A stretch of 64,000 bases of DNA from Dolichospermum sp. DET69. Its GTDB lineage: Bacteria > Cyanobacteriota > Cyanobacteriia > Cyanobacteriales > Nostocaceae. Under the pieces are notes generated by a model. It was not told the origin of the DNA and made no database searches. It saw nothing but the letters and a program-made list of their open reading frames with translations. The translations under genes and the position numbers were made by a program. The stretch covers positions 2,769,501 through 2,833,500 of the forward strand of contig CP070233.1 in assembly GCA_017355425.1 (NCBI GenBank), in the 5' to 3' direction. Numbering within the stretch: position 1 is the first letter of the stretch; each line of letters begins with the position of its first letter. Of the stretch, positions 13,842 through 36,848 are shown piece after piece.

Positions 13842-13883
13842 TGCACATTTTGCACCATGATCTTATGAACCTTGATTCCGTAG

Positions 13884-16973: not shown

Positions 16974-17121
16974 ATTTTTACCTTTTCAAATTCTCAATTA
17001 TCTGCAATCTCTATCAAAGAATCCTCTAGAATAAAGGAAAACAAGCATCGCTGAAACTGTTGTGTAGTTAAGATTCCAGTTTTAGCAGACAATTTTCCCG
17101 TTTTGTTCAAGTTATGTCCTC

Positions 17122-17240
17122 ACCAAATTATTCTAAAATAATTAGCGCGGTATCTCCAAGATTGAGGCAAAATAGATGAGTTTATTAAAAGATCAGGTTG
17201 CAATTGTCACAGGTGCATCACGAGGAATTGGTAGAGCGAT
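17122..17240 (+). repeat. left copy of duplicated DUF29-fabG junction (fabG upstream region and start)
   Basis: This stretch matches 18016-18135 over its whole ~119 bp, with roughly eight differences by eye. It includes the sequence upstream of fabG (ATTAGCGCGGTATCTCC) and the first 21-22 codons. The match ends at GCGAT, in the middle of what is a HIP1 octamer (GCGATCGC) in the intact gene. Together with the DUF29 remnant at 17916-17979 it makes a direct repeat of the old gene junction on either side of the toxin-antitoxin pair. Confidence 0.9.
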
Positions 17241-17250: not shown

Positions 17251-17289
17251 AATTAGACTGGCTTTAGGTTGGTTTCTCAAATAAGTGAT

Positions 17290-17310: not shown

Positions 17311-17324
17311 TTATCAACCAGAAT

Positions 17325-17588
17325 ATGTTAAAATACCTAACGATTACGGAAGCGCAAGAGCAACTTTTAGATTTACCAGATGATATAAAAGAAGAGCCAA
17401 TAATTATTACTAAACATGGTAAACCAGTAATAGCAGCAATTAGTTTTGAGCAATATGAATCTTTACTAGAAACTCTGGCAATTTTATCTGATAAAGAATT
17501 TACCCAGCAACTACAAGAAAGTATAGCTCAAGGAGAGAGGGGAGAAACTATTAATTGGCATGATGCAAAACTCAAACTCGGACTCTGA
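17325..17588 (+). CDS. Phd/YefM-type antitoxin
   Basis: An 87-residue protein with the YefM/Phd N-terminal fold: TITEAQEQLLDLPDDIKEEPIIITKHGKPVIAAI, of which ITKHGKPVIAAISFEQYESL is the diagnostic part. The C-terminal ~30 residues are the acidic toxin-binding tail. The toxin gene overlaps the 3' end by 26-29 bp, so the two are translationally coupled. The pair is enclosed by duplicated DUF29-fabG junction sequence. Confidence 0.9.
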   Translation: MLKYLTITEAQEQLLDLPDDIKEEPIIITKHGKPVIAAISFEQYESLLETLAILSDKEFTQQLQESIAQGERGETINWHDAKLKLGL

Positions 17589-17907
17589 ACTACCACAACC
17601 CGATAATATTGAATTTCAAATCCAGTTAACACCTCTAGCAATAGAGATGTTAGCAAATATTAAAGATAAACGTCACCAGCAAGCGATAAATTCACGTATT
17701 GATAAGTTAAAAATAGACCCAGAAAAACAAGGAAAGCCTTTAACTGGAAAGCTGATCAATTATCGCAGTGTTAGGGCTGTTAGTCAACGCTATCGGATAC
17801 TTTATAAAGTAGAACTTGATCAAGTGGTGGTTTTAGTAGTTGGTGTTGGCTTACGAAAAGAAGATGATAAAGGGGATGTTTATAATCTCCTTCAGAAATT
17901 ATTATAG
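17560..17907 (+). CDS. RelE/ParE-type toxin
   Basis: A 115-residue RelE-superfamily toxin: IQLTPLAIEMLANIKDKRHQQ, then INSRIDKLKIDPEKQGKPL, YRSVRAVSQRYRILYKVE and VVVLVVGVGLRKEDD. RelE members are ribosome-dependent or free mRNA interferases; ParE members target gyrase. The C-terminal region is of the 'YRILYKV...VGVGLRKE' kind common in cyanobacterial RelE/YafQ-like toxins. Two adjacent ATGs (17560, 17563) are possible starts inside the antitoxin gene. The stop at 17907 is immediately followed by the right junction repeat. Confidence 0.87.
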   Translation: MMQNSNSDSELPQPDNIEFQIQLTPLAIEMLANIKDKRHQQAINSRIDKLKIDPEKQGKPLTGKLINYRSVRAVSQRYRILYKVELDQVVVLVVGVGLRKEDDKGDVYNLLQKLL

Positions 17908-17915
17908 AAATTTTA

Positions 17916-18811
<896 letters not shown>

Positions 18812-18846
18812 TTTGTCAGTTGTCAGTGGGAAGAATTTATGCTTCT

Positions 18847-18927
18847 ATTCCCTATTCCCTGTTCCCTGTTCCCTGTTCCCTGTTCCCTATTCCCTGTTCC
18901 CTGTTCCCTATTCCCTGTTCCCTGTTA
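18847..18927. repeat. heptanucleotide STRR (TTCCCTG/TTCCCTA) overlapping a gene end
   Basis: About eleven tandem heptamers. They run into the 3' end of the minus-strand gene at 18852, where they are read as GNREQGIGNREQG-type residues. Confidence 0.9.
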
Positions 18928-20000
18928 TTTAACATTCTTTGCCAAACGGTAAGCCCTAATAGCAAGATAATACCAACGGCAGTAGTCAGCATTACTGCTA
19001 AACTCATACCCTGTACTCTCATAGCCAGCAAATTACAACCCAAAGTAATTGACCATAAGATAAAAGCCGCATTGCGTTGAGATAGTCCCCAAGCCAACAA
19101 GCGGTGATGGATGTGGTCTTTACCTGGTGTACTCAGAGGGTTTTTCCCTGCCATGAGACGGCGCACAAACACTTGAGTAGTGTCAATAACTGGCAACAGC
19201 AGAAATAAAACTGTAGGGATTAGGGCATAGATTGTATTGAGTTGGAGTTTGCCTAAAATGCTGGTTGCTGCTAAGACATAGCCAAAAAAGTATGCTCCAG
19301 CATCACCCATAATGATCTTTGAAGGATGAAAATTATGGCGTAAAAAGCCCAGTGCCGCCCCTCCCAAAGCCGCTAAAACTAAAGTTGCAGCGGCACGATT
19401 ATCAAACTGGGCAGAAACTCCTAACAAACTGATGGCAGTAATAAAGCTGATGCCACCAGCCAAACCATCCATCCCATCCATGAGGTTAACAGCATTAGTG
19501 ATCCCCACCACCCACAGCACAGTTAAAGCCATAGATAAGAGAGAATCAATGGGTGTACCAAAGGCAACTTTGATGCTAATACCATTACCAACCAGCAAAA
19601 GTGCTGTTGTTACCTGCGCCCATAACCGCACAGATGGAGGTAAGCCAAATTGGTCATCAATAAAGCCCACCAGCACTAAAATTGAACCACCGAGAAGAAT
19701 CGTTAACACCTGAGCCAAAACCCCTTGCAGTTCAATAGGCCGCAAGAGACTAGCTAAAACCAAAGCCGCAATTACCCCTGCGTAGATTGCCAAACCTCCA
19801 GCATTAGGTAAAGGTTCTTGATTCAACCGGCGGGCATTGGGTTGATCTGCCCAACCTACTTCTAAGGCAAATTTGCGAATTGTGGGAATTAAACGCCAGG
19901 TAACAATCAAGGCTAATAGAAACGTGAATACTACAGCTAACCAGCCGGAGCCGCTAGGGTCAGCAATGCCAAGGGATTTAAGGGAGTTTGCTAAGTTCAT
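18852..20000 (-). CDS. MraY/WecA family glycosyl-1-phosphate transferase
   Basis: A polytopic membrane enzyme (382 aa) transferring a sugar-1-phosphate from a UDP-sugar to undecaprenyl phosphate. Visible are VGFIDDQFGLPP (Asp-Asp motif), NLMDGMDGLAGG, the MGDAGAYFFGYVL loop, and the basic HIHHRLLAWGLSQ region of WecA/TagO-like enzymes. About ten hydrophobic segments are present. The last ~24 residues are repeats of (G)NREQGI/T, encoded by the STRR; the natural C-terminus probably ended near QRMLNN. More likely a WecA-type GlcNAc-1-P transferase than MraY, since the HIHHRL motif is of that subgroup. Confidence 0.88.
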   Translation of the reverse strand: MNLANSLKSLGIADPSGSGWLAVVFTFLLALIVTWRLIPTIRKFALEVGWADQPNARRLNQEPLPNAGGLAIYAGVIAALVLASLLRPIELQGVLAQVLTILLGGSILVLVGFIDDQFGLPPSVRLWAQVTTALLLVGNGISIKVAFGTPIDSLLSMALTVLWVVGITNAVNLMDGMDGLAGGISFITAISLLGVSAQFDNRAAATLVLAALGGAALGFLRHNFHPSKIIMGDAGAYFFGYVLAATSILGKLQLNTIYALIPTVLFLLLPVIDTTQVFVRRLMAGKNPLSTPGKDHIHHRLLAWGLSQRNAAFILWSITLGCNLLAMRVQGMSLAVMLTTAVGIILLLGLTVWQRMLNNREQGIGNREQGIGNREQGTGNRE

Positions 20001-20104
20001 CTGCTCCCAATATAATCATTAGTTTTATGGTCAAACATAAGTATCAACTGTTAATATTAATCAATTTTGAGATTTTGATTGTTAATCTAAATTGGGGAAA
20101 GGGA

Positions 20105-20131
20105 TTAGCACTCTTGGTCAGTGAGTGCTAA
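20105..20131. promoter_or_regulatory. CIRCE operator
   Basis: A perfect TTAGCACTC-N9-GAGTGCTAA inverted repeat, 32 bp upstream of groL. CIRCE is the binding site of the HrcA repressor, so heat-shock control of this gene is expected. Confidence 0.96.
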
Positions 20132-20160
20132 ATTGTCTAATGGAAGCAATAGAAAAATAA

Positions 20161-21855
<1,695 letters not shown>

Positions 21856-21889
21856 TTTGCCATTCAACCACATCCATAATTAATGAATT

Positions 21890-21923
21890 ACCCACCCCTG
21901 GAAACAGTAGGGGTGGGTTTTTT
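21890..21923 (+). terminator. Rho-independent terminator of groL
   Basis: Stem ACCCACCCCT / AGGGGTGGGT, loop of nine bases, followed by six T. It begins 34 bp after the groL stop codon. Confidence 0.92.
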
Positions 21924-22054
21924 ATTAATCTAATAGAGTCTTACAGCAAATTGTCATCAAACCTGGAACAAGAACCCCACCCCCAACCCCCTCCCCGCAA
22001 GCGATGAGGGGGCTAAGATGTACATTATATGATTGAAAATCGCTGTAGTTAAAA

Positions 22055-22665
22055 TTAAGATTCTTGAATTTCCTTTTGTAATAAACCAGGAACAGTTAGA
22101 AATTTATCTGTCGGTTGTTCCCACAAGCGAATAATATCAAACTCATGGTAAGTCCTCTCTAATTTAAAACTGTTTTCATTGGCTAATTCTGATCCTGTTT
22201 TTCGCAAATAGACGACTATTTGCCGCATTTGTTTGTGAGGAAAGCGGCGATACACCCTCACCCGATAATCTAACATCCTAAGAGGATGTTTGAAAAGTGG
22301 TATTCCGTAATTTTCATCACATTGCTACCCCCCTTAGTCCCCCCTTGTAAAGGGGGGAAACAATAAAAATCCAGTTCCCTCCCCTTTACAAGGGGAGGGT
22401 TAGGGTGGGGTAAAAAATATTTGATACATCAACCATAACTTTTCAAACACCCTCTAAAGGGCATATCTTCATCTGTGCCGGTTTGAAATTCAGTATGTAG
22501 AACTAATTGATCAGATTGTAATAAAATTAATGAATCGGCTCTAATTGGATCATTTGATAATTCGGTGGGGCTAAGTTCTGTTAATTTGATTGGTGAACCT
22601 AGTAACCATTTGGCTAAGTCTTATTTGAAGTTTTCAGCAAGGAATTTGCAGATGTTGTCATACAT
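22055..22665 (-). pseudogene. Rpn-family nuclease-like gene, broken by a nonsense codon and a MITE
   Basis: The N-terminal part starts at 22665 (MYDNICKFLAENFK), hits an in-frame TAA at 22621-22623, and goes on as DLAKWLLGSPIKLTELSP...HTEFQTGTDEDMP. A 173-bp MITE (22282-22454) then interrupts the frame. The sequence resumes on the other side as RMLDYRVRVYRRFPHKQMRQ and runs to a stop at 22055. Joining across the element restores the usual Rpn order DEDMPFRMLDYRVRVYRRFP. The C-terminal part of the family (about half the usual length) is also missing. Confidence 0.88.
22282..22454. mobile_element. MITE-2 copy, 173 bp, TAA target duplication
   Basis: Ends GAGGATGTTTGAAAAG and CTTTTCAAACACCCTC form imperfect terminal inverted repeats. 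They are flanked by TAA on both sides (22279-22281, 22455-22457). The interior has two GC-rich hairpins (CCCCCCTTGTAAAGGGGGG and CCTCCCCTTTACAAGGGGAGG). It lies inside the Rpn gene remnant, and removing it with one TAA restores the reading frame, which supports the boundaries. Confidence 0.88.
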
Positions 22666-22699
22666 GAGAATTTGAAAAAATGGGATCAGTTATTGTTGA

Positions 22700-22912
22700 T
22701 TAATAATGATTAATTATCGCTATATGTTGCCATTCACTTTCCCAACCTAATTCTAATTCATCAACCAAAGTGCAAGCAGCCGCTAGTGCTTTATCTTGTT
22801 GTTTTTCTTGCCATTGTTTCAAGAGGCTTTCAATCAACGCACTACGGTTTTCAACTTTTTGATCAATGTAATTTACTAGTTCATCTGGCAATGAAATTGA
22901 GATTTTAGCCAT
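22700..22912 (-). CDS. ribbon-helix-helix antitoxin, apparently without its toxin
   Basis: A 70-residue protein with the N-terminal RHH DNA-binding fold ISISLPDELVNYIDQKVE followed by RSALIESLLKQW. Such MazE/CopG-like antitoxins are normally followed by a MazF/PemK toxin. Here the C-terminus ends in an unusual IAIINHY and the next thing downstream is the broken Rpn gene, so the toxin seems lost and the antitoxin tail altered. A palindromic operator lies just upstream. Confidence 0.8.
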   Translation of the reverse strand: MAKISISLPDELVNYIDQKVENRSALIESLLKQWQEKQQDKALAAACTLVDELELGWESEWQHIAIINHY

Positions 22913-22927
22913 ATATTACCCAAGGTC

Positions 22928-22943
22928 ATACTATAAGTAGTAT
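22928..22943. promoter_or_regulatory. probable operator of the RHH antitoxin gene
   Basis: Perfect inverted repeat ATACTA-TAAG-TAGTAT, 16 bp upstream of the antitoxin ATG. RHH antitoxins typically bind such palindromes to repress themselves. Confidence 0.5.
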
Positions 22944-23191
22944 AGCTTGATTTTGATATTTTTAATCTAGTTTAGAATATGGAATTTGATTTTGATTTAG
23001 TTCGGGTGGTAATCCTCCCGTAAGATTAATTTTTCTATATGTATCCGTCATGGTTATATTTCTATATCTTCTCTTATTTACATGATAGTTGGTGATGGTA
23101 GTATGATGTATACTATATGTTATGCTTGTTTTTGTCTACGACTCCCGTAAGGGATATGTTTCTCAACTCAACCTACTGAAAATGTGAAGAT

Positions 23192-26100
23192 ATGAGTCAG
23201 CAAGTTTCTAAAGCTTTATTTCAGAAAAAGGTGTTAAAAAATGCCTTGGTTAATTTTAAGTTTCCTTCAGATTTAGAAGCACGTCACCAAATTATTACAA
23301 AATGGGTTGAGGCTTTAAATTCAGGGACTCTTAACCAAGAAAAAGAGGTTGCTTTACATGGTGATTTTCTCAAAGATATATTTCAAGATGTTTTAGGTTA
23401 TTCTTCCATTATTGCAGGTGGTGGTAAACTTTGGGAAATTAATGCTGAACAAACTATTGCTAATGGTAGGGGTTATGCTGATGCTGCTTTGGGATTATTT
23501 ACCGCAACGGAAAATAACAAGAGAAAGGTACAGGATAAAGTTGTTGCACCAATTGAGTTAAAAGGTACAAAAGATGATTTAGATAGACCCGCACCAGGCA
23601 GAAAAGAATCCGCAGTTGAACAAGGTTGGCGTTATGCTAATTATACACCTGATTGTCATTGGATTATTATTTCTAATTATCGAGAATTGCGATTATATCA
23701 TACTAATAAGACTCCGGCTTATTATGAAAAGTTTTTATTAGTTGATTTGGTAGATTTAGAGGAATTTAAAAGATTTTATTTTCTGCTTTGTCGAGAAAAC
23801 TTTTTACCAGTTAAAGATGTATCTAAAATTGATACATTGTTAGTAACTTCTGAAGAAGCACAAGAGGACATTACTAAACAACTTTATGAAGAATATAAAC
23901 AAGTTAGATTAAGTATAGTTAAAGATTTTTGGTTTCGCTTTGGGAGTAAGTTGAATATTCCTAATCCTGACCAAGTGTTAATTGAAAAAGCACAAAAGAC
24001 ATTAGACAGAATTTTATTTATTGCTTTTTGTGAAGATAGAGGATTATTACCAGAAAAGACAATTGCTAAAGCTCATGATAGCAAAAATGCTTATAATCCT
24101 CGGTCAATTTGGGAAAATTATCAAGCTGTTTTTCGCTGGGTTGATCAAGGTAATGAAGATCCACCAATTCCCGGTTATAATGGTGGTTTATTTAAACATG
24201 ATCCAATTTTAGATGAACAATTAAATATTCCAGATCCTTTATGTAAGCAACTTAAAGAACTAACGCGCTTTGATTTTGATTCGGAAGTTTCTGTAGATAT
24301 TTTGGGGCGGATTTTTGAACAATCAATTACAGATTTAGAAGAATTAAAAGCGGATGTTGCTAAACAGAAATTTGATAAAAAACAAGGTAAACGGAAAAAA
24401 TTAGGCGTATTTTACACTCCTGCTTATATTACTCAATATATTGTCGAAGTTGCGATTGGTGGATATTTACAAAAACGTGAAGATGACTTAAGACAAAAGC
24501 TTAAATTAGAGGAATTTGCAGATACACCCCAAAGCCAAAAAAAAGAAATTGAATTTTGGGAAAGTTACAGAGATGAAGTATTAGTAAAAACGCGAGTTGT
24601 TGATCCTGCTTGCGGTTCTGGTGCGTTTTTAATTGCGGCTTTTGATTATTTTGTAAGTCAGTATCAACGAGTTAATGATAATTTGCGATTTCTGAAACAT
24701 CAAATTACAGAAAATATTGAATTAGATAAAACTATTCTCAGTAATAATCTGTTTGGGGTGGATTTATCGCCAGAGTCGGTAGAAATTACTAAGTTATCTT
24801 TGTGGTTGAAAACTGCAACTCAGGGAAAAACTTTAACTTATTTGGATGATAATATTAAAATCGGTAATTCTATAATTGCTGATTTGCAATTTACAGATTT
24901 ACCTTTTGTTTGGGAAAGTGAATTTTCTCAAGTGTTTAGTGAAGGTGGTTTTGATGTGGTAATTGGAAATCCTCCTTATATTCGTCAACTTTTATTATCT
25001 GATATAAAATCTTATTTACAAGAAAAATATAGATGCTATCATGGGTCGGCTGACTTGTATGTTTATTTCTATGAGAAAGGTTTAAATCTTCTGAAATCGG
25101 AAGGAATACTTTCTTATATTGTGACTAATAAATGGTTGCGTTCTGGTTATGGTGAACCTTTACGACGCTTCTTTTCTCAGTCAAGTGTGTTTGAACAAAT
25201 TATTGATTTTGGACACGCACCAATTTTTGAAGACGCTGATACTTTTCCCTGTATTATCGCAGCGAGGAAAATCACCCCACCCCAACCCTCCCCGCAAGCG
25301 AGGAGGGAGGAAGAGAAGGTTTTAGTTTGTGCTGTTCCCCGTGAGGAATTGAAAAATATTAATCTCACTCAATATGTGCAGAATCAAGACAACAGTTACA
25401 CTATTTATTGGTCACGTTTTACTGCTAATGCTTGGAGTTTAGAACCTCCTGCGATTGATGATTTAATGCGGAAAATTCAACGGGTAGGAGTTCCGTTAAA
25501 GGAGTTTGCTGGAGTTAAACCTTATCGGGGAATACTTACAGGTTTTAATGAGGCGTTTTTAATAGATGAAGCTACTAAGAATAAGCTAGTTCAAGCTAAT
25601 CCGAAATGTGCGGAAATTATTAAACCTTATTTAAGAGGTCAAGATATAAAAAGATGGGTTTCTCAATGGGAAAATTTATGGATTATTTTTACTCGTCGTG
25701 GAATTGATATTGATGCTTATCCTACTATTAAAAATTATCTTAGTCAGTATCAAAAGCAATTAGAACCTCGTCCTAAAAATTGGAATACAAATAAAGATGG
25801 TAATTGGGAAGGACGAAAACCAGGTGTTTATAAGTGGTATGAGATTCAGGATAGTGTTGATTATTGGCAATTATTTGAACAGCCAAAAATTATTTGGAAA
25901 GACTTATCTACATATTCAGAGTTTTGTTTTGATAATAGTGGTATTTTTACTAATGACTTGTGTTTTATTTTTAGTTCAAGTGATCTTTGGATATTAGCAG
26001 TTCTGAATTCTCCTGTAATGTGGTACTACTTGTCTCGCACTACAATTCATGGACTTAATGAAACACTTAGGTTAAAAAACATTTATACAGAAAATATTCC

Positions 26101-26548
26101 TATTGCAAAACCTACAGAAGAAATTCGCGCAGAAGTAGAAGCAATTGTCATGCGGTTAATTGAAATTACCAAACTCAACGGACAAGTTTATAAAGATGTT
26201 CTCGACTGGTTGCAAGTAGAATACAAAATTGAGAAACTGGGAAATAAACTAGAAGATTTCGCAACTTTAGAATTTACAGACTTTGTAGAGGAAGTTAGAA
26301 AAAGAATGCCAAAACCAAAAACTGCTAAAAAAGCTTCAGATCCTTTAAGTATACCAGCATTTACAGCTTTACGTAAAGCACATAATGATTATGTTCCCGA
26401 AATTAAAAGCCGGAAAAATGAAGCTTTAAAATTAGAATATCGTCTTTCTGATTTAGTTAATCAAGCTTATCAAATCACACCGGAAGAAATTGATTTAATG
26501 TGGAAAACAGCACCACCAAGAATGCCGATTTCCAGAGTTGATAAGTAA
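23192..26548 (+). CDS. Eco57I-like fused restriction-modification protein (type IIG-like)
   Basis: An 1118-residue single-chain enzyme. N-terminal nuclease-like part: GYADAALGLF (Asp ~96) and VVAPIELKG (ExK ~121-123), a PD-(D/E)XK core. Then a helical linker, and an N6-adenine methyltransferase with the SAM motif DPACGSGAFLIA (~471) and catalytic NPPYIRQ (~592). The C-terminal ~400 residues should hold target recognition. No separate methylase or specificity gene lies nearby, as expected for type IIG. Residues ~694-709 (TPPQPSPQARREEE) are encoded by a dispersed repeat inserted in frame. An in-frame gene of full length suggests it may still work. Confidence 0.9.
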   Translation: MSQQVSKALFQKKVLKNALVNFKFPSDLEARHQIITKWVEALNSGTLNQEKEVALHGDFLKDIFQDVLGYSSIIAGGGKLWEINAEQTIANGRGYADAALGLFTATENNKRKVQDKVVAPIELKGTKDDLDRPAPGRKESAVEQGWRYANYTPDCHWIIISNYRELRLYHTNKTPAYYEKFLLVDLVDLEEFKRFYFLLCRENFLPVKDVSKIDTLLVTSEEAQEDITKQLYEEYKQVRLSIVKDFWFRFGSKLNIPNPDQVLIEKAQKTLDRILFIAFCEDRGLLPEKTIAKAHDSKNAYNPRSIWENYQAVFRWVDQGNEDPPIPGYNGGLFKHDPILDEQLNIPDPLCKQLKELTRFDFDSEVSVDILGRIFEQSITDLEELKADVAKQKFDKKQGKRKKLGVFYTPAYITQYIVEVAIGGYLQKREDDLRQKLKLEEFADTPQSQKKEIEFWESYRDEVLVKTRVVDPACGSGAFLIAAFDYFVSQYQRVNDNLRFLKHQITENIELDKTILSNNLFGVDLSPESVEITKLSLWLKTATQGKTLTYLDDNIKIGNSIIADLQFTDLPFVWESEFSQVFSEGGFDVVIGNPPYIRQLLLSDIKSYLQEKYRCYHGSADLYVYFYEKGLNLLKSEGILSYIVTNKWLRSGYGEPLRRFFSQSSVFEQIIDFGHAPIFEDADTFPCIIAARKITPPQPSPQARREEEKVLVCAVPREELKNINLTQYVQNQDNSYTIYWSRFTANAWSLEPPAIDDLMRKIQRVGVPLKEFAGVKPYRGILTGFNEAFLIDEATKNKLVQANPKCAEIIKPYLRGQDIKRWVSQWENLWIIFTRRGIDIDAYPTIKNYLSQYQKQLEPRPKNWNTNKDGNWEGRKPGVYKWYEIQDSVDYWQLFEQPKIIWKDLSTYSEFCFDNSGIFTNDLCFIFSSSDLWILAVLNSPVMWYYLSRTTIHGLNETLRLKNIYTENIPIAKPTEEIRAEVEAIVMRLIEITKLNGQVYKDVLDWLQVEYKIEKLGNKLEDFATLEFTDFVEEVRKRMPKPKTAKKASDPLSIPAFTALRKAHNDYVPEIKSRKNEALKLEYRLSDLVNQAYQITPEEIDLMWKTAPPRMPISRVDK
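25273..25319 (+). repeat. dispersed repeat inserted in frame into the restriction-modification gene
   Basis: The segment with CCCCACCCCAACCCTCCCCG followed by CAAGCGAGGAGGGAGG is GC-rich, unlike its AT-rich surroundings. It closely resembles the non-coding repeat at 21990-22015 (CCCCCTCCCCGCAAGCGATG then AGGGGG). Its in-frame translation interrupts an otherwise natural ARKI...VLVCAVPREEL sequence. Confidence 0.8.
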
Positions 26549-26574
26549 TAGAACTGGAAAGAATTAGATACCCA

Positions 26575-26604
26575 ACTCCCCCACTTATCAAAGAAGTCGG
26601 GGAT
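26575..26604. repeat. imperfect copy of the GATCCCCGACTTC hairpin repeat
   Basis: ACTCCCCCACTTATCAAAGA followed by AGTCGGGGATTT, then T-rich sequence, 27 bp after the restriction-modification stop codon. It could act as a terminator here. Confidence 0.6.
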
Positions 26605-26679
26605 TTATTTTATTTTCTACAGACTTAGAGTTAAAATAAGATTATTAATAACCCATCCAAACAAGATTGCAAAAATATC

Positions 26680-27129
26680 ATGGTTTCTATTTCCAAGACA
26701 GCAATCCGGTTGTATGATACTGATTTCGTAACATGGACACAGCAAACCGCTGAGTTAATCCGTGCTGGAAAATGGAATGGGGTAGATTGGGAAGCGGTTG
26801 TTGAGGAGATTGAAAGCTTGGGAAGGTCAGAGCGAAGAGAGTTAAAAAGCCGATTGGAGGTATTGTTACAGCATTTGCTAAAATGGCAATATCAGCCCGG
26901 TTTGCGAAGTGGCTCTTGGCAAAATACAATTACAGAACAACGAAACCGTATTGAAGATTTACTCCAAGATAGTCCCAGTCTTAATCCCTATTTAGAAGAA
27001 GTTTTAGTTGAGTGCTACCGCAGAGGAAAAAAACTCGCAACTAACGAAACTGGAATTTCTCAAAATACCTTTCCAACAGATTTACCTTACACTATCACTC
27101 AAATTCTAGATATAGAATTTTTACCATAA
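26680..27129 (+). CDS. DUF29 family protein (copy 3)
   Basis: A 149-residue DUF29 protein: LYDTDFVTWTQQTAELIRAG, WEAVVEEIESLGRSERRELK, LLKWQYQP, WQNTITEQRNRIEDLL, and FPTDLPYTITQILDIEFLP at the C-terminus. Function is unknown. The last ~60 bases of the gene, and the neighbouring phosphatase 3' end, are repeated beyond a small cargo gene (27621-27778), the same architecture as at DUF29 copy 2. Confidence 0.9.
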   Translation: MVSISKTAIRLYDTDFVTWTQQTAELIRAGKWNGVDWEAVVEEIESLGRSERRELKSRLEVLLQHLLKWQYQPGLRSGSWQNTITEQRNRIEDLLQDSPSLNPYLEEVLVECYRRGKKLATNETGISQNTFPTDLPYTITQILDIEFLP

Positions 27130-27226
27130 ACCATCACACAATTTGCAAAACAACTAATGTCATATCATCAGTATTTTGCCGCTCAGAACCGATAAATTGC
27201 TCAACTTGATCAAATAGATATTCCAC
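27068..27226. repeat. left copy of duplicated DUF29-phosphatase junction
   Basis: Matches 27621-27778. The phosphatase part (27134-27226) differs from the intact gene end at about five of 93 positions by eye; the DUF29 part is more diverged. The match stops abruptly at TTCCAC (27226 and 27778). Confidence 0.9.
27134..27226 (-). pseudogene. 3' fragment of the SpoIIE phosphatase gene
   Basis: Corresponds to the last ~30 codons of the intact gene at 27686 (VEYLFDQVEQFIGSERQNTD then DMTLVV region). It lies directly after DUF29 copy 3, in the same convergent orientation as the intact gene has to the DUF29 remnant at 27621. Confidence 0.85.
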
Positions 27227-27267
27227 TTCAAAAAATAATTGTTTTCCATCGCCAAAATAACCCTCGA

Positions 27268-27579
27268 TCATATTCTACCAACTGCTCCAATTTCATTCAA
27301 CCGAAACATACAATGTACAGCATGAGGATGTTTATCGCGTGCTTGTTGACTAGCAACTTCCTTATCTTGATCAAAGAAATAATCACCACTATCCGGTTCT
27401 ACGGCAATATACCAATTATAATGTTCCTTCATTAACTCAGGACGGACACGCTCAAAAATTGCTCGACAACGTTTATGAAAAGCTTCTTTTTCCGCTTTAC
27501 GTTTAGCTAGTTCTTCCGGTGATAATGTCAACTCAGGAAAGATTCTGCCTCTTCTTCTGGGTGGTTGTGATGTTAACAT
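27268..27579 (-). CDS. small hypothetical protein, possibly DUF5678-like (cargo between junction repeats)
   Basis: A 103-residue protein. The N-terminus is basic (RRRGRIFPELTLSPEELAKR), followed by a charged helix and a C-terminal beta-rich part YNWYIAVEPDSGDYFFDQDK and AVHCMFRLNEIGAVGRI. The C-terminal half recalls DUF5678-like proteins, which in cyanobacteria I associate with a neighbouring retropepsin-like protease gene; none is here. The gene sits between the two junction repeats, in the position the toxin-antitoxin pair has at the fabG locus. Function is unknown. Confidence 0.65.
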   Translation of the reverse strand: MLTSQPPRRRGRIFPELTLSPEELAKRKAEKEAFHKRCRAIFERVRPELMKEHYNWYIAVEPDSGDYFFDQDKEVASQQARDKHPHAVHCMFRLNEIGAVGRI

Positions 27580-27620
27580 ATTTGTAAACTCGCTTTTGAC
27601 AATTAACTATTTTAATAGTA

Positions 27621-27683
27621 ACATTTCCAGCAGATTTACCTGACACTGTTAATCAAATTATAGATATAGAATATTTGCGATAA
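27621..27683 (+). pseudogene. DUF29 C-terminal fragment (right junction repeat)
   Basis: Reads TFPADLPDTVNQIIDIEYLR-stop, the last 20 residues of a DUF29 protein, similar to TFPTDLPYTITQILDIEFLP of copy 3. There is no start or upstream part. It ends 3 bp before the phosphatase stop, so the ancestral convergent DUF29-phosphatase junction is preserved here. Confidence 0.88.
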
Positions 27684-27685
27684 AA

Positions 27686-29071
27686 TCACACAATTTGTAA
27701 AACCACCAACGTCATATCATCAGTATTTTGCCGCTCAGAACCGATAAATTGCTCCACTTGATCAAATAGATATTCCACAATTTCCTGGGGACTATTACAA
27801 TACTTACAAGCTGTGCGGAAAGAGGTAACAAAATTATCTTCATCAAAGCGATCGCCACCAGCCGCCGCCGCATCAGTTAAACCATCAGTATAATAAATAA
27901 CTGTATCCCCAGATTCTAACTGTGCCTGAGCATCTTCATATTCACTATTAGCATCTAACCCAATTAACATCCCCAAAGTATCCAACTGGCTTACAGTTTT
28001 TGTAGCTGCGTGCCACCACAAAGGCGGATTATGGGCGGCATTACTATAAGATAAAATCCGCGTTTGTGGGTCATATTCTGAATAAAACATAGTTACAAAG
28101 CGGTGGGAATTTTCCAAATCCGCATACATAACCCGATTCAAATTTTGCAAAATTCCTGCTGGGGAATTACCATGCAATACTTCACCCCGGAGCATTCCCC
28201 GCAGCATCGTCATAATTAAACCAGCGGGAACACCTTTTCCCATGACATCCCCAATTACCAAACCCCAACTAGCATTTTCTGTAGATTCTTGAAGCTGGGA
28301 TTTTAACTGGTTTTGACTAGTAGGAATAAAATCATAGTAGTCACCACCAACCTGATTAGCCGGTTTACAACGGGCTGCTAAAGATAAACCAGGAATATTT
28401 GGACATTGACGCGGTAAAAGTCGGCGTTGAATTTCCGCACCAATTTCTAATTCTTGGTCTAAACGTTCTTTTTTTCTTAACTCTACAGATAGTTCATCAT
28501 TATCAATAGCAACTGCTGTTTGGTCTGCCACTAACCGCACTAATTTCTGTCTAGTTTCTGTCCAACTATATTCAGGATCACGACTCAAAACATACAGCCA
28601 ACCCCGTTCTGTATGCTTGACTAAAATAGCTGTCCCAAAGATTTGTACATCTGGACCTAAAATAGCGTGCATCTGGTCATCTAAAATACCTGTAGAAATA
28701 GCAGCAGGCCCTGAGTTAGCCAAAAGAGTAACTTGACTACTAGCAGTTTCTAAGGCTTTTCTAATATTTTTTCTTTGCTGACTATCTTGCCAATGTAGTT
28801 GTTCTAATCTAATTTGTCCATTGGGTTTATAAAGAAAAAGTGCGCTACCTTCCGCATCTGTCACTCTGGTAGCCATGAGAGGAATCAATTCCAAAAACTG
28901 ATTTAAATTATTAAAACTTCTCAGAGCAAACCCCAAAGAACTTAGCAAGTCTTGAATTTTATTTTGTTCTCTGTGCAGCCTGGACACAAGTTCCTTAAGT
29001 GCCACCACAGGAGTGACATCTGTAGTGACGCTGCTATTACTATCAGTAGAATGAGGGGGAAATTGTGACAC
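27686..29071 (-). CDS. SpoIIE/RsbU-type PP2C serine phosphatase with GAF domain
   Basis: A 461-residue protein. Residues ~45-195 form a GAF-like sensor domain (GSALFLYKPNGQIRLEQL, LVADQTAVAIDN). Residues ~210-460 are a PP2C-type SpoIIE domain: ARCKPANQVGGDYYDF, GDVMGKGVPAGLIMTMLRGM, TMFYSEYD and YYTDGLTDA. The expected role is to dephosphorylate an anti-sigma-antagonist or other partner. The start is a GTG at 29071; no upstream ATG is in frame nearby. It lies downstream of ftsY on the same strand, but 1.2 kb of MITE-rich sequence separates them. Confidence 0.9.
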   Translation of the reverse strand: MSQFPPHSTDSNSSVTTDVTPVVALKELVSRLHREQNKIQDLLSSLGFALRSFNNLNQFLELIPLMATRVTDAEGSALFLYKPNGQIRLEQLHWQDSQQRKNIRKALETASSQVTLLANSGPAAISTGILDDQMHAILGPDVQIFGTAILVKHTERGWLYVLSRDPEYSWTETRQKLVRLVADQTAVAIDNDELSVELRKKERLDQELEIGAEIQRRLLPRQCPNIPGLSLAARCKPANQVGGDYYDFIPTSQNQLKSQLQESTENASWGLVIGDVMGKGVPAGLIMTMLRGMLRGEVLHGNSPAGILQNLNRVMYADLENSHRFVTMFYSEYDPQTRILSYSNAAHNPPLWWHAATKTVSQLDTLGMLIGLDANSEYEDAQAQLESGDTVIYYTDGLTDAAAAGGDRFDEDNFVTSFRTACKYCNSPQEIVEYLFDQVEQFIGSERQNTDDMTLVVLQIV

Positions 29072-29699
29072 AGGTTAATATTGCAGTTAAGAATAGCAAA
29101 TGTGGATTCTTTATAAATACTCTTTCTTGATAAATTGTGAAATCATATTGAACGAAATTCCTGATTTTAGCAAGAGTAGAATAACTGTTTAAAGTAATTT
29201 TTTAGGTCTTAGCTCATGCTGAGGACATTTTCAATGGTTAATTTTCCCTGCGGAGGAATTGTCTAATTTGTCAAAAATAAGTCTTTAGCAATCAGTGATT
29301 TTTATGATTAATTAGTAGCCTCTAATCTTTCCATAACTGAATTAGCTCTTCATATATCTTGAGAAATAAAAATTTGGAACTAGCAAAATCACCTCTATTC
29401 CTAAAAGAGTAGATATTAAGAATCATCAAACAAAAAACCAGATGGGTTTTGAGTAACTGGGGTTTTGGTCAAAACATAGATGTAATTATCCTTTTAATCA
29501 AAAATGTCCAAATATTGACTGTAAACATTTAACCTATATACCATAAATTCTCGAAATGTTTCCTTAGATAGATTTCTTTTATAGAAAATTTATCCCTTTT
29601 TCTAGAAAATATATATCAAACTTACTCAGCTACCAATCAATGATGAATAACCCCACCCCCGTTTTACTGGCGTAAAACTTCCTCTCCCCTCATGAGGGG
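29072..29699. other. intergenic region, no gene seen
   Basis: About 560 bp of AT-rich sequence without a convincing reading frame or RNA fold, followed from about 29650 by a GC-rich repeat (CCCCACCCCCG ... CCTCTCCCCTCATGAGGGG) that carries the MITE starting at 29700. Confidence 0.6.
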
Positions 29700-29864
29700 C
29701 TACGGTGTACACACATCTCTAGACAGGATGCTAAACGTGATCCGATCCCCCTAAATCCCCCTTAAAAAGGGGGACTTTGAAGAATTTAGCCCCCCTTTTT
29801 AAGGGGGGTTGGGGGGATCTAAACGTTGTGGGGCAACTTTAGAAGACTTGTGTGTACACCGTAG
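29700..29864 (+). mobile_element. MITE-1 copy A, 165 bp
   Basis: Begins CTACGGTGTACACACA and ends TGTGTGTACACCGTAG, a perfect terminal inverted repeat. The interior is a long GC-rich hairpin (CCCCCTTAAAAAGGGGG and CCCCCCTTTTTAAGGGGGG). Flanks CATGAGGGG and CATGAAGGG look like a target duplication with one mismatch. It sits at the apex of a CCCCTCATGAGGGG palindrome. Non-coding; three more full copies in the window. Confidence 0.92.
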
Positions 29865-29888
29865 CATGAAGGGAGGGGATTGAGGGGT

Positions 29889-30107
29889 CTGACAAGTGTA
29901 GGTTTTTTACATTGTCTTGAGGACAAGACTTGGTGGACAAGGTAGACAAGGTGACAAGGGAGGAAAACCGGACAAATGAATGTATAGTTAGTAACAAAAT
30001 AACCCATGAATTGAGTATTTTGTGGATAAAATCCTCCTTGTCTACTTTCCTTCCTTGTCTTCCCGGTCTTGCCTTTACAGAGAATATTAAAAACCTACAC
30101 CTGTCAG
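29889..30107. mobile_element. MITE-3, 219 bp, 11-bp target duplication
   Basis: Ends CTGACAAGTGTAGGTTTTT and AAAAACCTACACCTGTCAG form a 19-bp terminal inverted repeat with one mismatch. It is flanked by GATTGAGGGGT (29878-29888) and GATTGATGGGT (30108-30118), an 11-bp duplication with one difference. The interior is rich in GACAAGG/CCTTGTC motifs. Non-coding; the overlapping open frames on both strands are products of the inverted structure. Confidence 0.88.
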
Positions 30108-30253
30108 GATTGATGGGTGGGGTAGAATGGCTGTGGGACAACGGTTTGAGCTTGTGCTTTACCCCTACGGTAAATATGGTTTTTACAACCATACATATTT
30201 AGTTTTTTTGTCAATGCGTAAGTCCTAGTAATGATCAATTTTGAGCCACACTA

Positions 30254-31741
30254 TCAACCGCTTAACAATGCTTCTACAAATTCGTAACTAGAGAATGGAC
30301 GCAAATCTTCAATTCCTTCACCAGCGCCAATAAAGCGAATGGGTAAGCCTAACTGCTGGACAACGGCGAGCGCTACCCCTCCTTTAGCCGTTCCATCTAA
30401 TTTGGTTAAAACCACGCCACTCAGTTGGGCTGCTTGGGAAAATACTTCAGCTTGTCGCAGTCCATTTTGCCCTAAAGTAGAATCGAGAACTAAAAGCGAT
30501 TCAACGCGGGCATGGGGGGCTTTTTTAGCTATAGTTTTGCGAATTTTGCCCAGTTCGTCCATGAGGTTTTTCTTATTTTGCAGTCTCCCAGCGGTATCTA
30601 TTAATAGTAGTTCTGTTCCCCTGGATTGGGCTGCGGCGATCGCATCAAATACCACTGCGGCTGGATCTGTATTTTTCCCTGGATTGGCGATAACTTCTAC
30701 ACCGCTTCTATTTCCCCAAACTTTGACCTGTTCTACAGCCGCAGCCCGGAAGGTATCAGCCGCACCAATTAGGCATTTATAACCAGATTTTTGCGCTAGG
30801 TGAGAAATTTTACCAATGGTAGTAGTTTTCCCAGCTCCATTAACTCCTGTAATTAACCAAATAGTGAGTTGGTCTTTTTCCGGTGCAAAGCTAGGTTTTG
30901 TCTGGTTTTGCAAGGGTGTATCTAGCATATCCCGAAGAATTTCTTTGAGATAAGAAATAGCTTGTTCTGGTGGAGTAACTTCTGCGAGGAGTTTTTTCTG
31001 TAGCGCACTAATAATATAATCTGTTGCCTCTACACCAACATCAGCCTGTAAAAGCAAGGATTCAATTTCATTAACAGCATCTTGATTAAGAGGTCCTTGA
31101 CCAACAATTGCTTTAAGTTGGTTGAGAAGATTTCGCCGAGTCTTATCCAAACCTTGACGGAGTTTTTTCAACCAATTAATTTCTTCTATAGAAATATCTT
31201 CGGCTTTTCTTCCTTGGGCGGCTAAAACCTTTGCTGACCATTTAAACCCGTCATCAAATACTAGTTCTGGAATCTCAATTTCTGGTTCTGTCGTGATTAT
31301 TGCTGTTTCTGGTGCAACCGTTTCTATCGCACTAGCGATTAATTTGTCTTGTTTGGCTTGTCTTTCGGCCTCTGCTCGTTCTAAAAAAGATAAATTAGCT
31401 GTTTCTGGTTCTGGCGCTATTTCTGGTTGTAATTCACTGACAACATCTTCAGTAATTTCTGCGCCCGTTGCATCTATTTCTATTGGTGCAGTTAATTCCT
31501 CAACTTGAGTTTCTACTATTTCTTGAGTAGTAGTATCTTCGTCAATAGCTACAGATGATTCTGTTTCTATTTGTTGTTTTTCTTGAATATTCTTATAAGC
31601 AGCTTTAGCAAAAGCCAGCAAATCCGCAGTATCTGGAACTGTTATTTCTGGTTGAGTTGCTTCTACTGCTGGTGTTTCTTCCTGGGTTGGGGGAGTATCA
31701 GCAGGTTCATTATTTGGACGACGAAACCAATTAAAAGCCAT
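30254..31741 (-). CDS. ftsY: signal recognition particle receptor FtsY
   Basis: SRP receptor GTPase (495 aa). The N-terminal ~190 residues are an acidic A domain rich in Glu, Thr and Pro. The NG domain follows: WLITGVNGAGKTTTIGK (G1), ADTFRAAAVEQ, LLIDTAGRLQNK, VVLTKLDGTAKGG and the C-terminal GIEDLRPF membrane-contact region. It acts at the plasma and thylakoid membranes in co-translational targeting. It follows nusB on the same strand; an STRR lies in the gap. Confidence 0.97.
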   Translation of the reverse strand: MAFNWFRRPNNEPADTPPTQEETPAVEATQPEITVPDTADLLAFAKAAYKNIQEKQQIETESSVAIDEDTTTQEIVETQVEELTAPIEIDATGAEITEDVVSELQPEIAPEPETANLSFLERAEAERQAKQDKLIASAIETVAPETAIITTEPEIEIPELVFDDGFKWSAKVLAAQGRKAEDISIEEINWLKKLRQGLDKTRRNLLNQLKAIVGQGPLNQDAVNEIESLLLQADVGVEATDYIISALQKKLLAEVTPPEQAISYLKEILRDMLDTPLQNQTKPSFAPEKDQLTIWLITGVNGAGKTTTIGKISHLAQKSGYKCLIGAADTFRAAAVEQVKVWGNRSGVEVIANPGKNTDPAAVVFDAIAAAQSRGTELLLIDTAGRLQNKKNLMDELGKIRKTIAKKAPHARVESLLVLDSTLGQNGLRQAEVFSQAAQLSGVVLTKLDGTAKGGVALAVVQQLGLPIRFIGAGEGIEDLRPFSSYEFVEALLSG

Positions 31742-31814
31742 TGTACTTTATTAGATAAGAATTTAATTAGGAGTCAGGAAGAAGGAGTCAGGAAGAAGAA
31801 GAAGAAATAAAAGT

Positions 31815-31878
31815 CTTACCACTGACCACTGACCACTGACCACTGACTAATGACCACTGACTAATGACCACTGACCAA
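31815..31878. repeat. heptanucleotide STRR (CCACTGA) between nusB and ftsY
   Basis: Heptamers ACCACTG with interspersed ACTAATG units. They run into the end of nusB, where LVSGH and the stop are read from the repeat. The same heptamer forms the large array at 63007-63316. Confidence 0.85.
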
Positions 31879-32508
31879 TTTTTGTTCGCTAACTCGACGA
31901 AGAACACCATTAATAAAACGGTGGCCATCTTCTCCACTGTAACGTTTAGATAATTCTACAGCTTCGTTAATGGCGATGCTGTCAGGAACTTTCATAAATT
32001 TTATTTCTGCGGTAGCTATTTGCAGGATATCCCTGTCAATTTGAGCTAAACGGGTAACTTGCCAATCTATTAAGGCATGAGAAATAAATTCTTCGATAGC
32101 CTGACGGTTTTCGCTGACGGTAATAATAATTGCTTTGGCGTAATTACGAACTTCTTTATCTTGATTAGCTAACTGAATTAATTCAGGAAAATCAACAGAT
32201 GTACCTAATTGATTGATAGCCGTTTGCGTGTAGGAGATTGCCTCTTTCAGCATGGTTCTAGCTGTATTCAAATCGGCGGCTCTAGTTTCGCTAGTTAATA
32301 GGCGATCATTGCTCCGTTGCAGTTCTCCAGCGGCAATATTCAATGTGTCCTGTACTTCTACTGTGAGGGTACGGACTGCCCCTAAAACTAGTTTAGATAC
32401 CAATTGATCATCTGAGAGAGTTTCTAGTTTTTTGGGGTTGATTGGTAACTGGCTCAAGGCTAACAGTGCCAATTCACGGGCTATTTGTTGGGGTTTACGA
32501 CGTTGCAT
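31861..32508 (-). CDS. nusB: transcription antitermination factor NusB
   Basis: A 215-residue NusB, longer than the ~140 aa of proteobacteria, as usual in cyanobacteria because of an inserted helical region (residues ~45-105). N-terminal [21 protein letters not shown]-terminal [19 protein letters not shown] and [20 protein letters not shown] then RFINGVL are diagnostic. It binds boxA RNA with NusE. The final residues are encoded by the STRR. It lies 112 bp from the DUF502 gene and upstream of ftsY, so a DUF502-nusB-ftsY operon is likely. Confidence 0.95.
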
Positions 32509-35001: not shown

Positions 35002-35814
35002 ATGGCTAAAATTATCCCTTTATTAATGAAACGTAACAACACATTAACAGTTAGTATATCTCTTATTTCCAGTTTACTAGCAATGAGCTTATCCAGCACT
35101 GGGGAATTAGCTCAAGCGGGTCAACCCGGAACCGCACCTGCTACACTCACCAACCTATTAACACAAATTGACAGCGCCGCTAATCAAGGTAATGTTAATG
35201 GTGTCATGCAATTTTACAGTCCTACATTTACTCATGGTGATGGCTTAGATCGTAAAGCAATGGAACAATCCTTAACAGGACTGTGGAAGCGATATCCTAA
35301 ATTACGTTATACCACCAAACTAGAATCTTGGAAATCTGAAGGCAATACGATTATTGCGGAAACAGTTACCAACATTAGCGGTGTAACTGCATCTGGTAAT
35401 AATAATTTAGCTCTTCAGTCTACAATTAAATCGCGTCAAAAAGTCACAGGTTCAAAAATAGTTCATCAAGATATTTTATCAGAACGGACTCAACTAACCA
35501 CTGGTAATAAACCACCCCAAGTAGAAATTAAATTACCACAACAGGTAAAAGTTGGTGAGAAATATAGTTTTGATGCCATTGTTAAAGAACCATTAGGTGA
35601 GGATCTTCTGCTGGGAACAGCTATGGAAGAACCCATTCAAGGTAATAAACTTCTCAACCCCACAATTGCAAATTTAGAATTTCTTAATTCTGGAGGACTG
35701 TTTAAAACAGGACGCGCACCTTCTACTCCTGGTCCTCAATGGGTTTCCGCAGTAATTCGCAGAGGTGAAGATATGACTATTATTACACAGCGATTACAAG
35801 TAGTTAAAAAGTAG
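35002..35814 (+). CDS. secreted NTF2-like protein
   Basis: A 270-residue protein. Start chosen at ATG 35002 (MAKIIPLLMK), with a second candidate at 35026; the open frame extends to a TTG at 34972. Residues ~9-40 form a signal peptide or membrane anchor (TLTVSISLISSLLAMSLSS). Then an NTF2/SnoaL-like domain: LLTQIDSAANQGNVNGVMQF, YSPTFTHGDGLDRKAMEQSL and a Trp-rich beta region. The C-terminal ~100 residues look like a beta domain starting PPQVEIKLPQQVKVGEKYSF. No catalytic residues were identified; function unknown. An STRR begins at the stop codon. Confidence 0.78.
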   Translation: MAKIIPLLMKRNNTLTVSISLISSLLAMSLSSTGELAQAGQPGTAPATLTNLLTQIDSAANQGNVNGVMQFYSPTFTHGDGLDRKAMEQSLTGLWKRYPKLRYTTKLESWKSEGNTIIAETVTNISGVTASGNNNLALQSTIKSRQKVTGSKIVHQDILSERTQLTTGNKPPQVEIKLPQQVKVGEKYSFDAIVKEPLGEDLLLGTAMEEPIQGNKLLNPTIANLEFLNSGGLFKTGRAPSTPGPQWVSAVIRRGEDMTIITQRLQVVKK

Positions 35815-36092
35815 GTAATGGGTAATGGGTAATGGGTAATGGGTAATGGGTAATGACTAATGACTAATGGGTAATGACTAATGACTAATGACTAATGGGT
35901 AATGGGTAATGGGTAATGGGTAATGGGTAATGACTAATGACTAATGACTAATGACTAATGGGTAATGGGTAATGACTAATGACTAATGACTAATGACTAA
36001 TGACTAATGACTAATGATTAATGACTAATGACTAATGATTAATGACTAATGACTAATGACTAATGACTAATGACTAATGACTAATGACTAAT
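35815..36092. repeat. long mixed heptanucleotide STRR (GGTAATG and ACTAATG)
   Basis: About 39 heptamers in a row, blocks of TGGGTAA alternating with blocks of TGACTAA and a few TGATTAA. It begins at the preceding stop codon and ends by supplying the ATG of the next gene. Each upstream ATG in the array opens a frame that closes within five codons (ATG ACT AAT GAC TAA). Confidence 0.95.
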
Positions 36093-36848
36093 AACCAAAT
36101 TGTTTTAATTACTGGTGCAAGTAGTGGTATTGGTGCTGCTTGTGCCAAAATTTTTGCTCATGCTGGTGCAAAACTGATTTTAGCTGCACGACGGTGGGAA
36201 CGGTTACAGCAATTAGCTGATTCTTTGGATATTGCCTCTGACAAAATCCATTTATTACAACTTGATGTATGCGATCGCGTGGCGGTAGAATCTGCTATTA
36301 CTAACTTACCTACCTCCTGGTCGAATATTGATATTCTGATTAATAATGCTGGTTTAAGTCGTGGTTTAAGTAAATTGCATGAAGGCGACTTTCAAGATTG
36401 GGAAGAAATGATTGATACTAATATCAAGGGTTTGCTTTACCTGACTCGCTATATTGTACCAGGAATGGTGGAACGGAATTTTGGTCATGTCATCAATATC
36501 GGTTCTATTGCTGGACATCAAACCTATCCCGGTGGTAACGTCTATTGTGGGACAAAAGCGGCAGTTAAAGCCATTTCTGAAGGGTTAAAACAAGACTTAT
36601 TAGGAACTCCTGTGCGGGTGACTTCTGTTGACCCTGGAATGGTAGAAACAGAATTTAGCGATGTGCGTTTTCATGGTGATACAGAACGGGCTAAAAAGGT
36701 TTATGAAGGAATTAAACCCTTGACTCCTGATGATGTGGCTGATGTAATATTTTTCTGTGCTACTAGAGCTAGTCATGTTAATATTAATGAAGTCGTACTT
36801 ATGCCAGTTGACCAAGCCAGTGCGACTTTAGTTAATCGGCGGGTGTGA
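36084..36848 (+). CDS. SDR family NAD(P)-dependent oxidoreductase (YdfG-like)
   Basis: A 254-residue classical short-chain dehydrogenase: VLITGASSGIGAACAKIF cofactor motif, LILAARRWERL, NNAGLSRGL, catalytic Ser in NIGSIAGHQTYPGG, the YCGTK Tyr-Lys pair, and DPGMVETEFS. The sequence around YPGGNVYCGTKAAVKA is typical of the YdfG/serine 3-dehydrogenase branch, which oxidises 3-hydroxy acids; the true substrate is unknown. The ATG is the last unit of the heptamer array, and there is no ordinary Shine-Dalgarno. Confidence 0.9.
   Translation: MTNNQIVLITGASSGIGAACAKIFAHAGAKLILAARRWERLQQLADSLDIASDKIHLLQLDVCDRVAVESAITNLPTSWSNIDILINNAGLSRGLSKLHEGDFQDWEEMIDTNIKGLLYLTRYIVPGMVERNFGHVINIGSIAGHQTYPGGNVYCGTKAAVKAISEGLKQDLLGTPVRVTSVDPGMVETEFSDVRFHGDTERAKKVYEGIKPLTPDDVADVIFFCATRASHVNINEVVLMPVDQASATLVNRRV

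Follow-up and report, generated by a model that had tools for sequence, protein, structure and literature searches.

Insertion with long target duplication is described for restriction-modification genes of Helicobacter pylori (Nobusato, Uchiyama, Ohashi, Kobayashi, Gene 2000, as cited in PMC1643837, PMC3874152, PMC3154945 and PMC3031569). According to a review, addiction and apparent mobility are traits that restriction-modification and toxin-antitoxin systems have in common (PMC2654758). For transposed genes in Arabidopsis, Woodhouse et al. (2010, PMC2869330) propose tandem duplication as a source of the repeats, and also circle re-insertion. Here we analyse a locus of the cyanobacterium Dolichospermum sp. 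DET69 at which the junction between a DUF29 gene and a SpoIIE-type phosphatase gene is present twice, around a small gene encoding a protein of 103 amino acids (aa). The locus lies in a stretch of 64,000 nucleotides of contig CP070233.1 (positions 2,769,501 to 2,833,500 of the forward strand), called the window below. The window locus is a real, well-delimited rearrangement scar whose mechanism is ordinary as far as it is visible, and we consider it probable that it is a decaying recombination scar with a long target duplication. G000 denotes the window's own genome, other G numbers denote relatives in the genus, and L numbers denote loci fetched from these genomes.

The duplicated DUF29-phosphatase junction and its cargo

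The two copies of the junction form a direct repeat of about 160 bp (Table 1). The repeat is made of two pieces in a common register. Piece 1 pairs 27067-27130 with 27621-27684 at 84% identity and an offset of 554, and piece 2 pairs 27133-27226 with 27685-27778 at 95% identity and an offset of 552. A previous reading of the window from sequence alone (the sequence-only reading) had described this duplicated junction around the 103-aa gene, and both the repeat comparison and the presence of the same structure in the G002 assembly bear it out. A chance origin of the repeat is not credible, because only four comparable pairs were found in ~1.34 Mb and because G002 has the same structure. The same reading had reported no transposase and no inverted ends at the cargo, which holds here. 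The open reading frame (ORF) list gave the 103-aa gene as the only ORF of at least 50 aa in the 394-bp insert, with no transposase-like or integrase ORF. No inverted repeats of at least 40 nt were found within 15000-42000, and at a limit of at least 10 nt the interval 27180-27670 contained one 12-nt palindrome only, located within the left repeat, and none bounding the insert. The spacer at 27227-27267 carries the start of a truncated second gene (MIEGYFGDGKQLFFEV...), which is in frame with the phosphatase tail. DNA matching the phosphatase is present in all 16 genus genomes, that of the window counted.

Table 1. Features of the duplicated junction, of the fabG locus and of the HIP1 octamer discussed in the text (window coordinates)
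Position	Strand	Feature	Basis
26680..27129	+	Intact DUF29 gene, left neighbour, outer copy	PF01724, E 5.4e-56
27067..27226		Left copy of the junction repeat: intact DUF29 3' end and 94-bp phosphatase 3' fragment	Repeat comparison
27134..27271	-	45-codon chimeric frame: start of the second gene (aspartyl-protease-like, first 16-17 codons) fused in frame to the phosphatase tail	
27227..27620		Insert (cargo) separating both repeats, 394 bp	Missing at the G004 junction
27268..27579	-	Cargo gene, 103 aa	ORF list
27621..27778		Right copy of the junction repeat: 64-bp DUF29 remnant and end of the intact phosphatase	Repeat comparison
27686..29071	-	Intact SpoIIE-type phosphatase, right neighbour	PF07228, E 7.6e-57
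27848..27855		HIP1 octamer GCGATCGC within the phosphatase; exact end of the G002 left phosphatase fragment	
17117..17240		fabG locus, left copy: upstream region of fabG plus a 5' fragment that stops within a HIP1 octamer	
17325..17907	+	fabG locus, cargo: Phd-type antitoxin and ParE/RelE-type toxin	PF02604, PF05016
18011..18135		fabG locus, right copy running into intact fabG; HIP1 at 18131	

In congeners, the gene of the 103-aa type is the first of a two-gene unit that encodes a 110-aa protein followed by a 120-aa protein, with overlapping stop and start codons. The 110-aa relatives are up to 91% identical to the cargo protein over the matched part. The second gene, which was found intact in L044 and L043, gave a sub-threshold match to the clan AA aspartic protease family TIGR03698 (40 bits against a cut-off of 57). 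At the limits applied, searches of Pfam, NCBIfam and PADLOC gave no family for the 103-aa protein, which also matched no known toxin or antitoxin family, and a sequence search of solved structures returned nothing convincing (best E 0.22). Regarded as a toxin-antitoxin module, the 103-aa/protease pair would stand outside the known toxin-antitoxin families. The units occur singly (for example in L044, L046 and L053) or in arrays (three in L045, two in L048), and they are found together with DUF1802-like genes at L043, L045, L048 and L049. At L043 and L045 they are flanked by genes that, to judge by their sequences, are a putative Sua5-type gene and a putative DUF1802-like gene. In G000 the array locus (C1:5179500-5185000) is ~2.4 Mb from the scar; it retains one diverged unit, and a 95-bp remnant of a cargo-type gene, 95% identical, is located there at G000:C1:5181753. 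As judged from its sequence, the insert is the eroded remains of a stretch related to this DUF1802/103-aa/aspartyl-protease array and is not a discrete cassette. At L193 (1398-1513, G009:C63), a DUF1802-like 3' end is followed almost directly by a 3' remnant of the 103-aa gene, and the array at this locus may have collapsed by deletion.

The junction in relatives and exchange between its copies

The assembly of G002 contains the same scar with the same right junction and an insert that is 98.9% identical over 369 bp. Its left phosphatase fragment extends 77 bp beyond that of G000 and stops at the octamer GCGATCGC. Beyond this point come a DUF1802-like 3' end, a dispersed repeat and, of the second gene, no more than a short stub. 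The G000 insert is without the DUF1802-like end and retains more of the second gene than G002 does. In G002 the duplication takes in a minimum of 64 bp from the 3' end of DUF29 and 171 bp from that of the phosphatase, about 235 bp together, compared to 160 bp in G000. The two genomes agree at the right junction and differ at the left one and in part of the insert. Neither state is simply derivable from the other, which suggests a longer common insert that was trimmed independently in the two genomes. The lack of a fixed left end argues against a cassette, and a discrete mobile cassette was rejected on the grounds that the right junction alone is common to both genomes and that the G002 insert holds the DUF1802-like 3' end and the dispersed repeat.

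The other relatives present several different arrangements. In G004 the intact DUF29 gene and the phosphatase adjoin directly, the junction being single-copy (the two matches overlap by 160 bp) and free of an insert. In G010 only a DUF29 remnant was found, again with no insert; it starts within about 5 bp of the start of the window's right-hand remnant. No DUF29 match was detected beside the phosphatase in G013, G014, G006 or G005, and the neighbour differs in each. Given these arrangements, the 3' side of the phosphatase is a labile junction in the genus. The best named hits of the search that placed the genus were Aphanizomenon flos-aquae FACHB-1287 and Dolichospermum planctonicum NIES-80. 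On the other side of the locus, to the left of DUF29, G000 has a large Eco57I/TaqI-type restriction-methylase gene (23192-26548). A different gene is present there in G002 and G004, so the restriction-methylase gene probably arrived after the scar. The window also contains arrays of 7-bp units, ACTAATG/GGTAATG and CTGTTCC/CTATTCC, at 35746-36158 and 18831-18933.

Alignment of the phosphatase tails revealed the motif GCCGCTC in every one of the four copies from G000 and G002, and it is absent from the six other aligned sequences. The left copy of G000 is identical to the right copy of G002 at 94 of 94 phosphatase bases, compared to 5 differences in 176 bases between the right copies of the two genomes. 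Because the left copy of G000 thus matches the right copy of G002 better than the right copy of G000 does, the comparison indicates that gene conversion has taken place between the repeats. By our own reading of the frame, the exchanged states would be synonymous in the phosphatase, and in G002 left-copy sequence seems to have replaced the 3' end of the functional phosphatase through conversion. The phosphatase 3' end was compared at 27685-27778 of the window and at 4722-4815 of L038. In the DUF29 part, the protein states PDTVNQ are common to the right remnant and G010, and PYTxTQ to the left copy and G004. The informative DUF29 sites, read by eye from an alignment with only 62-66 comparable bases, split 3:2:1, with three joining the right remnant to G010, two joining the left and right copies, and one supporting the third grouping. 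By overall distance, the right remnant differs from G010 at 11/62 bases, from G004 at 10/64 and from the left copy at 10/64, and so is no nearer to G010. A clean in-lineage copy of the left gene is thus one possible reading of the right DUF29 remnant.

Sister scars, DUF29 genes and HIP1 octamers

Scars were defined as pairs of repeats 100-400 bp long, with an identity of 80% or more and a spacing of 300-2500 bp, that were single-copy (no families) and not intragenic. Four were found in ~1.34 Mb of G000, two of them in the window and the others at L239 and L243. Each encloses a small two-gene module or its remains, and three of the modules are of known or predicted toxin-antitoxin types. The similarity in topology to the fabG locus that the sequence-only reading had pointed out is real, and it recurs elsewhere in G000 and in congeners. 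At the fabG scar (window 16875-18135), a DUF29 gene on the minus strand and the fabG 5' region are doubled around a Phd/ParE pair; the fabG upstream region retained in the left copy resembles that of G002 and G013.

At L239 (3469-5429; G000:C1, from 3702668), a UPF0175/DUF3368 pair, a DUF29 fragment and a ~200-bp dispersed repeat are located within 220-bp direct repeats. PMC2701414 counts UPF0175 among the predicted antitoxin families associated with PIN, and the pair at L239 matches PADLOC candidate PDC-S70. The L239 target is single-copy, at 214-217 bp, in G012, G013 and G014, and DUF29 sequence like the cargo piece is found near the target gene in G008, G009, G010, G012 and G014. At L243 (6023-7234; G000:C1, from 170523), a UPF0175/DUF3368 pair is located within 135-bp direct repeats. 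This insert is present in G000, G002 and G010, and the 135-bp target is single-copy in G003, G004, G005, G006, G012 and G015. Just 3' of the L243 target gene lies a UPF0175 gene in G005 or a 21-residue piece of one in G012. A second copy of the L243 target gene, 83% identical, was observed at G000:C1:199138, adjoining a ParE-type gene.

L380 differs between relatives in gene order. In G010 and G005 the order is gene A, a UPF0175 gene whose partner toxin gene is truncated or missing, a segment, and a further gene. In G015 (around C1:35995) gene A is followed by the segment, a 136-bp gene fragment, a UPF0175/DUF3368 pair and then the further gene. The best reading of L380 is a tandem duplication followed by complementary losses, which would produce just this difference. 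At L417 (the end of G002:C264), a 168-bp repeat surrounds a UPF0175/DUF3368 pair and the contig stops exactly at the end of the right copy; this may be an unresolved tandem duplication.

The frequency of such enclosure was surveyed at 83 usable UPF0175 loci of 85 (two were too short) from 16 genomes, further UPF0175 matches being tabulated but not fetched, with small ORFs of 80-200 aa from G000 only as controls. The script counted 6/83 enclosed loci compared to 2/323 controls (P 0.0012). Post hoc, we removed L396, which belongs to a dispersed family with 29 matches, and two control ORFs that were the L243 UPF0175/DUF3368 pair itself. This left 5/83 compared to 0/321 (P 0.0003); as L320 and L426 are orthologous, the five loci represent four events. 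For G000 alone, 2/17 were enclosed (P 0.002). A survey of 38 Phd/ParE loci in G000 yielded a single clear case, and this was the fabG locus of the window itself. Some straddling pair was also present at L321, L323, L334, L336, L341, L345, L347, L352, L353, L354, L361 and L367; these were not counted, and only L321, L334 and L361 were inspected more closely. In these genomes, small addiction-type pairs seem to lie within direct-repeat scars more often than other small genes do.

The sequence-only reading had proposed a common mechanism that carries small genes into DUF29-linked junctions. A common process is plausible, since the topology recurs; the link to DUF29 fared less well. We compared 29 regions around other DUF29 matches in G000 (260 kb) with 51 spread control stretches of 20 kb (1.02 Mb), one of which, L254, itself holds a DUF29 match. 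Scars of at least 100 bp were found in 1/29 DUF29 regions and 1/51 controls, so that the suggested enrichment near DUF29 was not seen as a significant excess in G000 (Fisher P 0.60 per region, P 0.36 per base), in a test of low power. With the limit lowered to 60 bp, there were 3 in the 260 kb of DUF29 regions and 4 in the 1.02 Mb of controls (P 0.15 per base). DUF29 as target or driver is unsupported by this comparison, itself a weak test. Three of the four G000 scars (L239 and the two window loci) are in contact with a DUF29 gene or a fragment of one, DUF29 is abundant in G000 with 40 matches, and the scar at G000:C1:170523 (L243) is 45 kb from the nearest one. A weak link to DUF29 may exist. 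Two scars lie within 9 kb in the 64-kb window, which was chosen on account of them, compared to two in the 1.28 Mb sampled elsewhere.

The HIP1 octamer GCGATCGC occurs 349 times in 1.02 Mb compared to 4.3 expected, a density of 1 per 2.9 kb. It was found at the left-fragment ends of the fabG locus and of the G002 phosphatase locus, and at the start of the G010 remnant. Of ten junctions listed by eye, three coincide with HIP1 (post hoc binomial P 5e-6). The ends of large syntenic matches between 12000-31900 and G002, also examined by eye, showed no coincidence with it. According to PMC4390886, HIP1 has been linked to site-specific recombination, and a link to homologous recombination is said to lack evidence. 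HIP1 as a general site of rearrangement is a post hoc lead.

Origin of the scar and comparison with known systems

If the window locus is a decaying recombination scar, illegitimate recombination would have duplicated the junction before G000 and G002 split, either capturing a stretch of the array or acting beside one. Deletions particular to each lineage would later have stripped a large share of the redundant sequence; with most of the second gene also gone, the 103-aa gene would remain as an orphan. Neither a dedicated mobility function nor a role for DUF29 would be needed. The comparable sister scars fit target duplication with a small toxin-antitoxin-type pair inside. Several observations weigh against this account. 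The single copy in G004 could be a secondary loss through recombination between the repeats and not an ancestral empty site, and since G010 has the remnant without an insert, the right remnant may predate the insertion. The DUF29 halves of the repeat differ at 10/64 bases in both G000 and G002, and the phosphatase halves at 5/94 (G000) and 7/174 (G002). Such uneven divergence is not expected of a simple recent duplication, which would be even. At L380 the direction of change is inferred, and G005 and G010 have the partner toxin gene only in truncated form or not at all. Finally, the array stands beside DUF29 or the phosphatase in none of the relatives examined, so that neither capture nor an origin from a neighbour is seen directly.

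Capture from a distant array and origin from a neighbour are equally possible for the window locus. In a pure tandem duplication, a possibility we hold only tentatively, the array stretch was once beside DUF29 or the phosphatase, the block was doubled, and complementary deletions produced the order DUF29 - phosphatase tail - array remnant - DUF29 tail - phosphatase. This is the process favoured at L380, and it fits L243, with a UPF0175 gene or piece 3' of the target, and L239, with DUF29 sequence near the target in five relatives. The different left fragments of G000 and G002 are also what later deletion would give. However, an array adjoining the junction was found in no relative examined, and the distance between unit and phosphatase is about 100 kb in G010, 80 kb in G013 and 2.4 Mb in G000. 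The sequence-only reading had itself named ordinary tandem duplication followed by decay as the alternative that would undo its proposal, and L380 is best read so. The distant location of the cargo relatives in G000 is in turn suited to ectopic repair, an explanation we regard with the same reserve, in which a broken junction end copied the array by template switching and rejoined upstream of its exit, doubling the target. There is precedent for restriction-modification genes in PMC1643837, PMC3874152 and PMC3031569, and the HIP1 octamer at the end of the G002 left fragment is a possible short homology. No donor with matching ends was found, however, and a direct mechanistic trace is absent.

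Natural transformation is distinctly unlikely. It would have brought the intact left DUF29 gene and the phosphatase tail from a G004-like strain into a recipient in which the truncated right remnant was already present. At its DUF29 end the left copy is indeed nearest to G004 (5/66 differences), and the right remnant has three states in common with G010, but the comparable bases number just 62-66 and the left phosphatase fragment has a state private to G000 and G002 and not that of G004, unless conversion erased the latter. A dedicated mobile small-gene cassette targeting DUF29-linked junctions, the idea of the sequence-only reading, is very improbable. It would account for two loci 9 kb apart that are each beside DUF29, and for the DUF29 fragment at L239. 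Against this, other DUF29 regions showed no significant excess of scars (at low power), the cargo families differ, the insert content and left end vary between G000 and G002, and in G002 the 3' end of a DUF1802-like gene and a dispersed repeat form part of the insert.

A broader proposal, which we think unlikely as it stands, is that in heterocyst-forming cyanobacteria addiction-type pairs relocate without a transposase in local duplications seeded by HIP1, with addiction forbidding loss of the last copy while the rest erodes. If true, direct-repeat scars around addiction-type pairs would be the footprint of a relocation process. Quite apart from this proposal, the scars give a concrete, testable account of how toxin-antitoxin pairs and similar modules may move in cyanobacterial chromosomes without a visible mobile element, and they would extend the restriction-modification pattern to a further class of addiction module. 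Toxin-antitoxin pairs are likely to be a wider cargo class of insertion with long target duplication. Among the matches listed in literature searches, no title or abstract dealt with cyanobacterial toxin-antitoxin pairs enclosed by long target duplications, and the matches to DUF29 in PMC3710099 concern DUF294 and are uninformative here. The locus also carries a caution: a duplicated gene junction need not be the mark of a new mobile cassette, and one junction here varies between close strains.

Tandem duplication followed by random loss is known from animal mitochondrial gene orders. Gene fragments beside moved genes and the difference in order at L380 resemble it, whereas at the window locus the cargo was seen beside the target in none of the relatives examined. 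The hallmarks of a transposon or insertion sequence (a short target duplication of fixed length, inverted ends, a transposase) were not found at the window locus, and neither were those of an integrase-dependent element, namely an integrase gene and constant attachment ends, the left end being different in G000 and G002. The transposed Arabidopsis genes of Woodhouse et al. (PMC2869330) are similar in having genic, host-derived direct repeats around the moved gene. They differ in belonging to a eukaryote and in the circle re-insertion proposed there, for which there is no evidence here. The closest likeness in structure is to insertion with long target duplication. As in that system, the insert lies between direct repeats of roughly at least 100 bp of host target (160 bp in G000, about 235 bp in G002), the target is single-copy and without an insert in a related genome (G004, where secondary loss is possible), no insertion sequence, transposase or terminal inverted repeats were found, and the cargo of the sister scars is of the addiction type. 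Unlike that system, the host is a cyanobacterium and not Helicobacter, the insert has been trimmed by later deletions, and the cargo is a 103-aa/aspartyl-protease orphan, with toxin-antitoxin-type pairs at the sister scars, in place of restriction-modification genes. On the sequence evidence, the window locus has the structure of an insertion with long target duplication and a cargo outside the original class.

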